DNA of 26,683 nt, taken from positions 1-26,683 of the IMG/VR virus record IMGVR_UViG_3300042465_004203; one strand, given 5' to 3'. Position numbers and translations under genes: made by a program. Shown here piece by piece: positions 8,321 to 24,390 of this stretch. Within the stretch, counting starts at the first letter, position 1. Every line of letters begins with the position of its first letter. The DNA comes from a virus. The notes beneath the pieces are model-generated. The model had not been told where the DNA came from, made no database searches, and saw only the letters and a program-made list of their open reading frames with translations.

Positions 8321-9511
8321 ATGCCTACGAATAAAGAGAAACTGACCGGAGCAGTAAGCGTCTGGTCCAACAGCTACAACGCACCAACTGGCTATGGTCA
8401 ACAGGCCACAATGCTAGTTGACAGACTCAAGCGAGCAGACCTCGATGTTGCCATGTTGTCAAACTATGGCCTTGAAGGTATCCCCAGCGTAATCAAAACC
8501 CCTTACGGCAAGATACCTCATTATCCCAGAGGAATAGACCAATACAGCAACGACTCTGGGCCACAGGATCACAAGACCTTCATCGCAAACTTTGACAAGC
8601 CCAATTTGTTTATCAGCCTTTACGATGTTTGGGTAATGAGGTCAGCTCAATACGATGACTTTCCAATCGCAGCATGGACACCGCTTGACCATGTAACCTT
8701 GCCACCAGGAGTTGAGAAGTTTCTACGCAAAGAAAATGTCACACCGATAGCTATGTCACCTCACGGAGTTAGACAGCTAAACGGCAAGGGCATTGAGTGT
8801 GAATACGCACCTCATGGAATAGATACCAAGGTTTACAAACCAACATACAAAATCGGCGGGCATGACATAAACGAGTATCTAGGTCTAACACCTGAAACCT
8901 TTGTAGTCGGAGTAGTGGCGGCTAACAAAGCATCTGGCCTAGTTCATCGCAAAGCCTATGGTGAGCTCATTCTTGCTTTCAGCATTTTTGCCAAAGACAG
9001 GCCCGATGCAGTTTTATACCTACACACAGACAGCTTTGGTTTCTCGGGTGGTTGGAACTTGCTGAACATCCTTAGCTCGCTGGGAGTAAAGAAGGAACAG
9101 GTTATCTTTCCAAACCCACAAGACTACCGGTTTGGTTTAGCTCAAACTAACCTTGCTGCACTTTACACAAGGATGGATGTCTTGCTTGCACCCAGCTTGG
9201 GTGAAGGCTTTGGGGTTCCATCAGTCGAGGCTCAAGCCTGTGGCACTAGGGTTATCGGTTCTAACTGGGCAGCGACACCTGACCTAATCAGCGAGGACTC
9301 ATGGCTAACCGATGGACAGCTAACTTGGGATGCTGGTCAAGACGCTTGGTGGATGACACCCAATGTGTCCAGCTTGGTCAATGCTCTCGAAGAATCTTAC
9401 AAGGCAGAGCGTGGCACATCACAAGTTGCGATTGACTTTGCTAGCCAGTTTGATGTCGAGAAGGTTTGGGATGAGAGCTGGGTTCCGATTCTAAAGAAGT
9501 TACTTAAGTGA
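8321..9511 (+). CDS. Glycosyltransferase, GT-B fold, GT4-like
   Basis: 396 residues. The C-terminal half contains SLGEGFGVPSVEAQACG (about 292-308) with the E-x7-E signature (Glu295 and Glu303) that retaining GT4 enzymes use to hold the nucleotide-sugar donor, and the flanking LYTRMDVLLAPS and GTRVIGSNWAATPDLI strands fit the family. The N-terminal half has a GYGQQATML loop that could contact the acceptor. It would transfer a sugar from a nucleotide-sugar donor to an unknown acceptor. Its place next to the capsid and before the connector, with its own promoter, suggests sugar addition to virion proteins; cell-surface or DNA modification remain possible. The stop overlaps the next gene's GTG (GTGA), so the two transferases are coupled. 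Confidence 0.85.
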   Translation: MPTNKEKLTGAVSVWSNSYNAPTGYGQQATMLVDRLKRADLDVAMLSNYGLEGIPSVIKTPYGKIPHYPRGIDQYSNDSGPQDHKTFIANFDKPNLFISLYDVWVMRSAQYDDFPIAAWTPLDHVTLPPGVEKFLRKENVTPIAMSPHGVRQLNGKGIECEYAPHGIDTKVYKPTYKIGGHDINEYLGLTPETFVVGVVAANKASGLVHRKAYGELILAFSIFAKDRPDAVLYLHTDSFGFSGGWNLLNILSSLGVKKEQVIFPNPQDYRFGLAQTNLAALYTRMDVLLAPSLGEGFGVPSVEAQACGTRVIGSNWAATPDLISEDSWLTDGQLTWDAGQDAWWMTPNVSSLVNALEESYKAERGTSQVAIDFASQFDVEKVWDESWVPILKKLLK

Positions 9512-22307: not shown

Positions 22308-22505
22308 GTGTTTAACTGGGAAAATAAAAACCTTGCCGAGGTTCTAGAAATGTACGGCGGTAACATCTTCATGGCTGAGATGGACTATCGAGCTATGGGC
22401 CTTGATGCAGGTCAATGGGTAATGCTCATCAAAGACGCTTATGATAAAGGTCAGGTCAGCCCAACAGTAATGATGCTGATGACTGAGAGAGCAGCAGCAA
22501 GATGA
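22308..22505 (+). CDS. Small protein under a structured leader
   Basis: 65 residues from GTG 22308 with AGGAGG 8 nt before it, inside hairpin 3 of the leader. Sequence is acidic to neutral, helical and rich in methionine (NKNLAEVLEMYGGNIFMAEMD, MLIKDAYDKGQ, TVMMLMTERAAAR). No known motif, signal peptide or membrane segment. It overlaps the initiator gene by 4 nt (ATGA), so control of this gene would also affect initiator synthesis by coupling. Confidence 0.65.
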   Translation: MFNWENKNLAEVLEMYGGNIFMAEMDYRAMGLDAGQWVMLIKDAYDKGQVSPTVMMLMTERAAAR

Positions 22506-23164
22506 GCATCGAAGCAGTCGCATTAGTCCTAAACAAATCCAAGGCCACCGGTAGGGCAAAACTTGTCTTGCTTGGTATTGCGAATCACCTTGGGGATCAG
22601 GGGGCATGGCCGGCAATAAGCACCCTGGCTCGCTATGCCAATGCCTCAGAGCGTTCCGTTAAGCGTGACATTCAAGAACTGATTGACCTTGGTGAGCTTC
22701 GAGTTGAGCTACAAAACGCACCAACTCAAAACCAATACAAGACAAACCTTTACTGGATAACAATTCAGGCAGGGGTGACAGATTCGGCATCAGGGGTGAC
22801 AGCTCAGGTAAGCAGGGGTGACAGCTCAGGTAAATCAGGGGTGACACCTGTTGGCACGCAAAACATCAATATAACCATCAAAGAACCATCAATAGAAACC
22901 AGCAATAATGACTTTGATAAATTCTGGAATCTTTACCCAAAAAAGATAGCTAAAGCTGATGCCCTAAAAGCTTGGAACAAAGCAATCAAAAGAAAACCTG
23001 CTGATGAGCTGTTGAAACTAGCTAAGGTTTACTCAGAGGGAAAGCTACCAGACCAAACTTACATACCCTACCCAGCCTCATGGCTAAACAAGGAACTCTA
23101 TGAGAGTGTTGAACTGGCTCAGGCAAAACCATTAGCTAAGTTGTTTGTAGGGAGAATAAATTGA
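22502..23164 (+). CDS. O-like replication initiator with N-terminal winged helix
   Basis: 220 residues. Residues about 1-75 look like the DnaA/O-type winged-helix found in phage replication proteins: a helical start (KATGRAKLVLLGIANHLGDQ), then AWPAISTLARYANASERSVKRDI with the recognition helix and ELIDLGELRV as wing. A Ser/Gly/Thr-rich linker (about 88-125) follows, encoded by the iteron DNA. The C-terminal domain (FWNLYPKKIAKADALKAW, YIPYPASWLNKELYE) is the helicase-recruiting part usual in these proteins. The initiator probably binds iterons inside its own gene and loads the DnaB-like helicase encoded next, as lambda O does with its ori. ATGA overlap at the start, 4-nt overlap with the helicase. 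Confidence 0.84.
   Translation: MSIEAVALVLNKSKATGRAKLVLLGIANHLGDQGAWPAISTLARYANASERSVKRDIQELIDLGELRVELQNAPTQNQYKTNLYWITIQAGVTDSASGVTAQVSRGDSSGKSGVTPVGTQNINITIKEPSIETSNNDFDKFWNLYPKKIAKADALKAWNKAIKRKPADELLKLAKVYSEGKLPDQTYIPYPASWLNKELYESVELAQAKPLAKLFVGRIN
22770..22847 (+). repeat. Four iterons inside the initiator gene, candidate replication origin
   Basis: CAGGGGTGACA occurs four times, starting at 22770, 22791, 22813 and 22836, with spacings of 21, 22 and 23 nt (about two helical turns). Because the spacings are not multiples of three, copy 3 is read in a different frame from the others (GVT in copies 1, 2 and 4, RGD in copy 3), so the repeat is kept as DNA, not as protein. An AT-rich stretch (about 22857-22926) follows directly, as an unwinding element would. 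Confidence 0.78.
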
Positions 23165-24390
23165 CACAGTTCGAGCAGTCAGTAATCGGATCAGTCCTAC
23201 TGACAAACGGCAAGGCACTTGAGAACCTGACACTCGCGCCTAAAGACTTTGATGACTTGCAAAACGAGCACATCTACAAAACCCTGCTAGAGATGAAGGC
23301 TAATCGCCAGCCGATTGATGTGATGACTGTTGGTGCAGCCCTTCCAAAACTTGCCAGCTATCTGCATGACATCGTTACGGCAACACCAACAGCAGCTTCA
23401 GTCAACTTCTATGCCAGCAAGGTAATCGAGGAAGCAACCAGGCGCAGACTCGCTATTGCCGGCACAATGATTCACAGCAAAGCTCAGCATGAAGATTTAG
23501 CAACAGTATTTGACACAGCCAAAAAAGAGATTGATGACCTGATTGATCGCAACTCCGCAGTCAAGCCAAGCTATGTCGCAGACGAACTACTGGCCTACAT
23601 GGATGAGATTGACAAACCAAAACTCTACCCAATAAGCCCTTGGGAATTACTGAACGACATTATCGGTGGCTTTAGGCCGGGTGCACTTTACATTGTCGGA
23701 GCAAGGCCTGGCGTTGGTAAAACCATCGTTGGTTTACAGATTGCTTGGGAGTTGTCAAAGATTGGCCCTGTATCTTTTCACAGCTTGGAGATGGGCAAGC
23801 ATGAACTTTACAATCGCATCGTTGCAAGTCAGGCAGAGGTCTATCTTGGAAGCATTGAGAAGGGGAACCTGCAAGAGTGGGAATGGGAACGCATCCTAAA
23901 AGTCCGAACCGAAATCCAATCGCATCGGTTAGCTATCCATGACAAGTCAGGCCAAAACCTATTACAGATTCGAGCATCGGCAAACAGCGTAAAAGGCTCA
24001 GGCGACCTAAAAGCAATTGTTGTTGACTACCTTGGACTAATCCAAGATACAGAAAAGGGGCGCAAGCGTTACGAGATGATCACAGACATCAGCATCGGCC
24101 TCAAGAACCTTGCCAGAGATTTGAATGTCCCAGTCATAGCCCTTGCTCAGCTAAACCGAGGCCCAGAGCAAAGACGCGACTCAAAGCCTGACATGGCAGA
24201 CTTAAGAGATTCAGGTGGAATTGAGCAGGATGCCGATGTCGTTATCTTGTTGCACCGCGAACAAGTCGAGGAAGATAAGTTTGATTGGCAAAAGAGCCAG
24301 ATGATTATGAAGGTCGCAAAGAACAGACATGGTGGACTCGGTGAGGTAGCACTACGCTTCGAGGGCCACCTTGCCAGAGTAGTTAGCTAA
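23161..24390 (+). CDS. Replicative DNA helicase, DnaB family
   Basis: 409 residues from a TTG at 23161 that follows GGAG. Residues 1-105 are a DnaB N-terminal domain (EQSVIGSVLLTNG, DFDDLQNEHIYKTLLEM). The RecA-type core has Walker A GARPGVGKT (180-188), a Walker B with Asp289 in AIVVDYLGLI, the sensor region AQLNRGPEQR (329-338), and a KNRHG arginine-finger loop at 387-391, as in active hexameric helicases. It unwinds the fork on one strand and is probably loaded by the O-like protein made just before it. The stop codon TAA is also the start of the -10 box of the next gene. Confidence 0.94.
   Translation: MTQFEQSVIGSVLLTNGKALENLTLAPKDFDDLQNEHIYKTLLEMKANRQPIDVMTVGAALPKLASYLHDIVTATPTAASVNFYASKVIEEATRRRLAIAGTMIHSKAQHEDLATVFDTAKKEIDDLIDRNSAVKPSYVADELLAYMDEIDKPKLYPISPWELLNDIIGGFRPGALYIVGARPGVGKTIVGLQIAWELSKIGPVSFHSLEMGKHELYNRIVASQAEVYLGSIEKGNLQEWEWERILKVRTEIQSHRLAIHDKSGQNLLQIRASANSVKGSGDLKAIVVDYLGLIQDTEKGRKRYEMITDISIGLKNLARDLNVPVIALAQLNRGPEQRRDSKPDMADLRDSGGIEQDADVVILLHREQVEEDKFDWQKSQMIMKVAKNRHGGLGEVALRFEGHLARVVS

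Follow-up and report, generated by a model that had tools for sequence, protein, structure and literature searches.

Most phage replication origins are unmapped. Among the systems closest to the locus described here, lambda has iterons that are 18-bp inverted repeats and bind dimers of the O protein (PMC5043065). In Salmonella phage L, one report describes six imprecise 11-bp repeats, TGTCCAACGGA, within gene 18, and suggests that the initiators of lambda, P22 and L each bind their own internal iterons (PMC8022706). In the iteron plasmids RK2 (oriV, with TrfA) and F (oriS, with RepE), direct and helically phased sites adjoin an AT-rich element that has repeats of its own and is bound in single-stranded form by the initiator (PMC4081077, PMC5043065). 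This binding is sequence-specific for one strand of the unwinding element in the case of TrfA and RepE (PMC4081077), and AT-rich origin DNA in single-stranded form is also bound by lambda-type O proteins (PMC7466680). A review still lists the opening of DNA and the loading of DnaB by phage initiators as an open question (PMC5043065).

The window analysed here is a stretch of 26,683 bases from an IMG/VR virus record, and it contains terminase, portal, capsid and tail genes. Within it we identified four iterons inside a replication initiator gene, followed by an AT-rich segment and a gene for a DnaB-like replicative helicase (Table 1). We propose that this region is a theta-type phage origin located within the initiator gene, the iterons of which would be bound by the winged helix that the same gene encodes, and we place the probability of this reading at roughly 0.87. 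A probable intragenic origin had been suggested in a preliminary description of the sequence, and the suggestion now draws support from DNA-level conservation, helical spacing, position, the AT-rich segment and covariation between the repeats and the protein. Elsewhere in the window, a gene next to the terminase genes (positions 50-1324) encodes a protein of phrog_498 that is ParB-like in its N-terminal part and a DNA methyltransferase in its C-terminal part, and a glycosyltransferase-like gene (phrog_2170) lies at 8321-9511 between capsid and tail genes.

Table 1. Features of the putative origin region, in window coordinates.
Feature	Position	Strand	Details
Initiator gene	22502..23164	+	220 aa; PF13730 E=7.8e-9; phrog_270 E=7.3e-31
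Recognition helix, codons 49-62	22646..22687	+	covariation; model helix 50-62
Arg51 codon and Arg55 codon	22652-22654 and 22664-22666	+	two residues covarying with the iteron
Iteron 1, CAGGGGTGACA	22770..22780	+	exact; invariant in 39 relatives
Iteron 2, CAGGGGTGACA	22791..22801	+	exact; invariant in 39 relatives
Iteron 3, CAGGGGTGACA	22813..22823	+	exact; different reading frame; invariant in 39 relatives
Iteron 4, CAGGGGTGACA	22836..22846	+	exact; invariant in 39 relatives
AT-rich segment, likely DNA unwinding element (predicted)	22863..22922	.	72% AT
Second repeat element, AACCATCAAAGAACCATCAATAGAAACC	22873..22900	+	AACC at 22873, 22884 and 22897
DnaB-like replicative helicase gene	23161..24390	+	TTG start; PF03796 E=9.7e-74, PF00772

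The initiator protein scores 35.6 bits against HTH_36 (PF13730), above the curated cut-off of 25, and residues 8-203, which make up most of its length, match the phrog_270 family 'replication initiation protein'. HTH_36 is the sole winged helix found in the protein, and no match to a plasmid Rep family was found. In an AlphaFold2 model the winged helix (residues 1-90) is confidently predicted, the linker that follows (about 90-132) has low pLDDT and is predicted to be disordered, and a helical C-terminal domain occupies residues 134-197. A sequence search found no close solved structure, and a fold search returned generic winged helices only (best E about 0.01), the DnaD N-terminal domain among them. 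The repeats had earlier been assigned to the linker-encoding part of an O-like gene. The first half of that assignment stands, as the iterons form codons for residues about 90-116 within the linker predicted to be disordered; the product of the gene, however, belongs to HTH_36 and not to Phage_rep_O. The start of the helicase gene overlaps the stop of the initiator gene by 4 nt. A DnaB-like gene is also located downstream in 16 of the 70 clusters of relatives with enough sequence, a search that is limited by short flanks.

All four copies of CAGGGGTGACA begin where the preliminary description had located them, and their spacings of 21, 22 and 23 nt are confirmed, so that they are direct repeats in helical phase. 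The window contains no further exact copy, and a single copy with one mismatch is found at 79-89 on the minus strand. No inverted repeat was found within the iterons of the window. A dyad reading of these iterons was considered and rejected, and the wider family has just a weak dyad signal at 19-21 nt. Near-perfect dyad iterons (GGTGAAG-CCCA-CTTCACC) are present in some relatives (L588:4671-5411, L554 and L541), and half-site and dyad forms coexist in the family. GC skew, which is uninformative on a partial genome such as this one, shows no clear switch at the iteron site.

We assembled a nonredundant set of 266 related genes, fetched by protein or by motif, that covers phages, prophages and viral contigs from two bacterial phyla; in 232 of them the linker repeats exceed every codon-shuffled control. 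The fairer figure is 67 of 92, obtained for the genome-derived subset fetched by family alone, because the larger set mixes protein-fetched and motif-fetched loci. Repeat spacings in the relatives are mostly 21-24 nt, with some of about 12 and 30-36 nt, values that correspond to multiples of about 11 nt. Relatives retrieved by protein rather than by motif have repeats at the same position, often in a different sequence, and all copies change together. Such concerted variants include CAGGGGTGTCA in L063, CAGGGGGTTCA in L079, GGGGTGAAC in Arthrobacter phages and GGGGTGCAA in Pseudomonas phages. These comparisons show that the iteron sequence changes in step with the initiator. In addition, four MAG contigs titled Rickettsia, Coxiellaceae, Chromatiaceae and Gemmatimonadetes (L210, L209, L222 and L224) carry GGGGTGAC repeats spaced about 20-23 nt apart in arrays that no open frame spans, and a Phycisphaerae MAG (L214, around 5225) has an open frame with tandem RGDNANVRPENAIV repeats.

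Two residues of the recognition helix covary with the iteron. For the discovery set, which comprised 172 genes with GGGTG-core repeats in 32 clusters, we compared the two bases following the core with every column of the winged helix, and mutual information singled out residues 51 and 55 (0 of 500 permutations for each). Residue 55 is usually Arg where the iteron is GGGTG-N-C and almost never where it is GGGTG-N-A, and residue 51 varies with whether N is A or T. All 13 clusters with GGGTGAC have Arg at both positions. We then took contigs fetched by triplets of GGGGTGTC or GGGGTGAA alone, a motif-first test that is largely, though not wholly, independent because some contigs (for example phages of the L063 and L293 types) overlap the discovery set. 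Among GGGGTGAA arrays (20 clusters) residue 55 is Arg in none and residue 51 is Arg in 19, whereas among GGGGTGTC arrays (23 clusters) residue 55 is Arg in 17 and residue 51 is a residue other than Arg in 15, nine of these being Ser. Fisher tests on the motif-first sets alone give p=2e-7 for residue 55 and p=8e-5 for residue 51. Exceptions include eight of the 23 GGGGTGTC (TC) clusters, in which Arg51 accompanies the array; two of these eight carry GGGTGAC on the other strand.

Kinship was controlled with a tree built without the recognition helix. Bases are numbered so that, once CAGGGGTGACA is aligned to GGGGTG-N-N, the A of GAC is the 8th. In this numbering, 64 of 71 rows of the tree set show agreement between base 9 and residue 55, and 54 of 62 show it between base 8 and residue 51. 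About 4.8 of five well-supported independent pairs agree for residue 55 and 3.7 of five for residue 51; neither result is significant, because five independent pairs cannot reach significance. At 22 loci (L448, L495, L461 and others) the iteron array and the initiator gene that contains it are on opposite strands; the residue-51 trend is kept there, but Arg55 is present in two of six GGGGTGAA cases. The two residues are four apart on the modelled recognition helix (50-62). From these patterns, residues 51 and 55 appear to choose the iteron site.

The AT-rich stretch and the helicase gene that had been reported to follow the iterons are both located as described. The AT-rich segment is the best 60-mer of this stretch and lies at the 99.8th percentile of the window for AT content. 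In 89% of 53 clusters of relatives, the 60 nt that follow the iterons have a higher AT content than the remainder of the gene. The segment also contains AACC repeats, which the preliminary description lacked and which form a second phased set beside the iterons. The copies in the window are 11-13 nt apart and mostly invariant among close relatives. Across the family, the spacing of AACC within the AT-rich stretch peaks at 11-12 and 22-24 nt, and the extended consensus is roughly GAACCRTCAA. Pairs 11 nt apart number 44 against 8.7 expected from recoding the same proteins (maximum 16 in 100), in the same data in which the periodicity was noticed; a partial answer is the split into viral, genome, GGGTG and non-GGGTG subsets, in each of which the excess recurs. 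Pairs at 11 nt use all three frames, and none are found on the reverse strand. The element is common to relatives with different, unrelated iterons, and pairs at 11-12 nt are found in 54 of 126 clusters only.

Covariation shows recognition, not purpose, and iteron initiators often repress their own genes. Both points would suit an operator, at which the initiator binds its own gene and limits how far that gene and the helicase gene are transcribed or translated, while the origin lies elsewhere. We consider this unlikely, as the sites are in the middle of the gene and not at a promoter, the region has no more promoter-like matches than chance would give, the AT-rich flank bearing AACC and the helicase gene fit an origin, and the annotated lambda iterons and P22 origin occupy the same place. 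Less likely again is a role in copy control or incompatibility, with the iterons binding the initiator and initiation occurring at another site of the genome. The window is part of a phage genome and another array could lie outside it; however, the window has no other exact array, and this one is flanked by the AT-rich repeat element.

It had been claimed from the sequence that the repeats are kept as DNA and not for the protein. No iteron column varies among 39 distinct collinear close relatives, and this holds for all 13 fourfold-degenerate sites; fourfold sites outside the linker in the same relatives average about 1.15 bits, and two of 80 show no variation. Strong constraint continues 3' of iteron 4 as far as about 22890. 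Judged from these alignments, the constraint on the iterons acts at the DNA level, and the claim is upheld. The third copy is likewise in another frame, as had been noted: it is read as SRGDS, and copies 1, 2 and 4 are read as [A/S]GVT. That selection on GVT motifs in the linker created the DNA repeats, as the coding of three of the four copies might suggest, is scarcely credible, given that copy 3 encodes RGD, that the 22-nt spacing in Arthrobacter and Pseudomonas phages takes the repeats through all three frames, that frozen fourfold sites are confined to the repeats and the sequence next to them, that the linker is predicted to be disordered, and that 20,000 synonymous recodings of the initiator protein never gave four copies of any 11-mer (the maximum of three was reached twice). 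Codon shuffling that kept repeated codons gave at least four copies in 7 of 20,000 trials.

In cellular genomes, exact iteron pairs lie mostly outside initiator genes, and those clearly within them are matches in Microbacterium, Curtobacterium and Tersicoccus only; for this reason the idea that the exact iteron is universal across phyla was dropped. The iterons might also be dispersed repeats with no relation to the gene in which they lie by chance, such as REP-like sites or sites for packaging or recombination, and in some genomes pairs of the GGGGTGAC type do occur outside initiator genes. We regard this explanation as negligible: relatives retrieved by protein alone again have repeats in the same place, and these vary with the protein.

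We infer binding, melting, helicase loading and origin activity as follows. The winged helix would bind the four 11-bp iterons, which share one face of the DNA at intervals of about two helical turns and coincide with codons for a disordered linker in which their sequence would be tolerated. In the recognition helix, Arg51 and Arg55 are separated by one turn and would recognise the two variable bases at the end of GGGGTG-A-C. The complex assembled on the iterons may strain the adjoining AT-rich segment, in which the phased AACC repeats would act as a sequence-specific unwinding element, perhaps held single-stranded by the initiator, and the DnaB-like helicase encoded next door would be loaded onto the opened AACC segment.

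A broader proposal seems to us to have slightly better than even odds: that HTH_36 initiators spanning phyla carry their own binding sites, that two bases of these sites are mostly determined by residues 51 and 55, and that the initiators share an AACC element for unwinding or helicase loading. As part of the same joint proposal, this element would be strand-specific, phased at 11-12 nt, and independent of iteron type in its action. If this picture is correct, the initiator gene of many phages and prophages would directly reveal the origin and the sequence recognised there, two residues would allow part of the specificity to be predicted, and the AACC element would offer a defined target for studying how phage initiators open DNA and load DnaB. 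The intragenic-origin arrangement is of a known type. The residue code and the AACC element are new points, provisionally so because the literature searched leaves out most subscription papers; within that literature we found no description of the iteron motif, the AACC repeat or the residue code.

Several known systems share parts of this arrangement. The Pseudomonas and Arthrobacter phage initiators (phrog_270/phrog_1032) resemble that of the window in having HTH_36, iterons in the same linker and downstream repeats of the AACC type. However, their iterons are GGGGTGCAA or GGGGTGAAC, and in the Arthrobacter phages the next gene encodes a methyltransferase and not a helicase. The window iterons are asymmetric single sites arranged as direct repeats, as in plasmids, but unlike RK2 and F the putative origin lies inside the initiator gene, and the only domain matched is HTH_36. 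The phage L gene 18 repeat differs from that of the window, and no residue-to-base correspondence is given in the accessible part of the report (PMC8022706).

The lambda origin, in gene O, has four annotated mid-gene iterons in shifting frames at intervals of 20-24 nt, followed by an AT-rich stretch. The likeness to lambda ori pointed out in the preliminary description thus extends to intragenic iterons and an AT-rich flank, but not to the protein family (lambda O is Phage_rep_O, PF04492, whereas the window protein matches only HTH_36), to iteron symmetry (the lambda iterons are dyads) or to the next gene, which encodes the loader P in lambda and a DnaB-like helicase in the window, as in P22. 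Lambda O (L597) and P22 gene 18 (L598), the iterons of which are quite unlike each other, also share repeats of the ACAAAAGA type, which follow the iterons at intervals of 14-15 nt and are a parallel to the AACC element. Genes 18 and 12 of P22 share with the window an annotated internal origin, repeats in shifting frames and an adjacent DnaB-like helicase gene, and P22 gp18 weakly matches phrog_270 (3.5e-9). However, gp18 is a Phage_rep_O (PF04492) protein in Pfam whereas the window protein is HTH_36, the P22 repeat is TCGGTAAAAC, and its downstream repeat is ACAAAAGACAATA at 14 nt where the window has AACC. The comparison with lambda holds for layout only, and the layout of the window is lambda-like and closest to that of P22.
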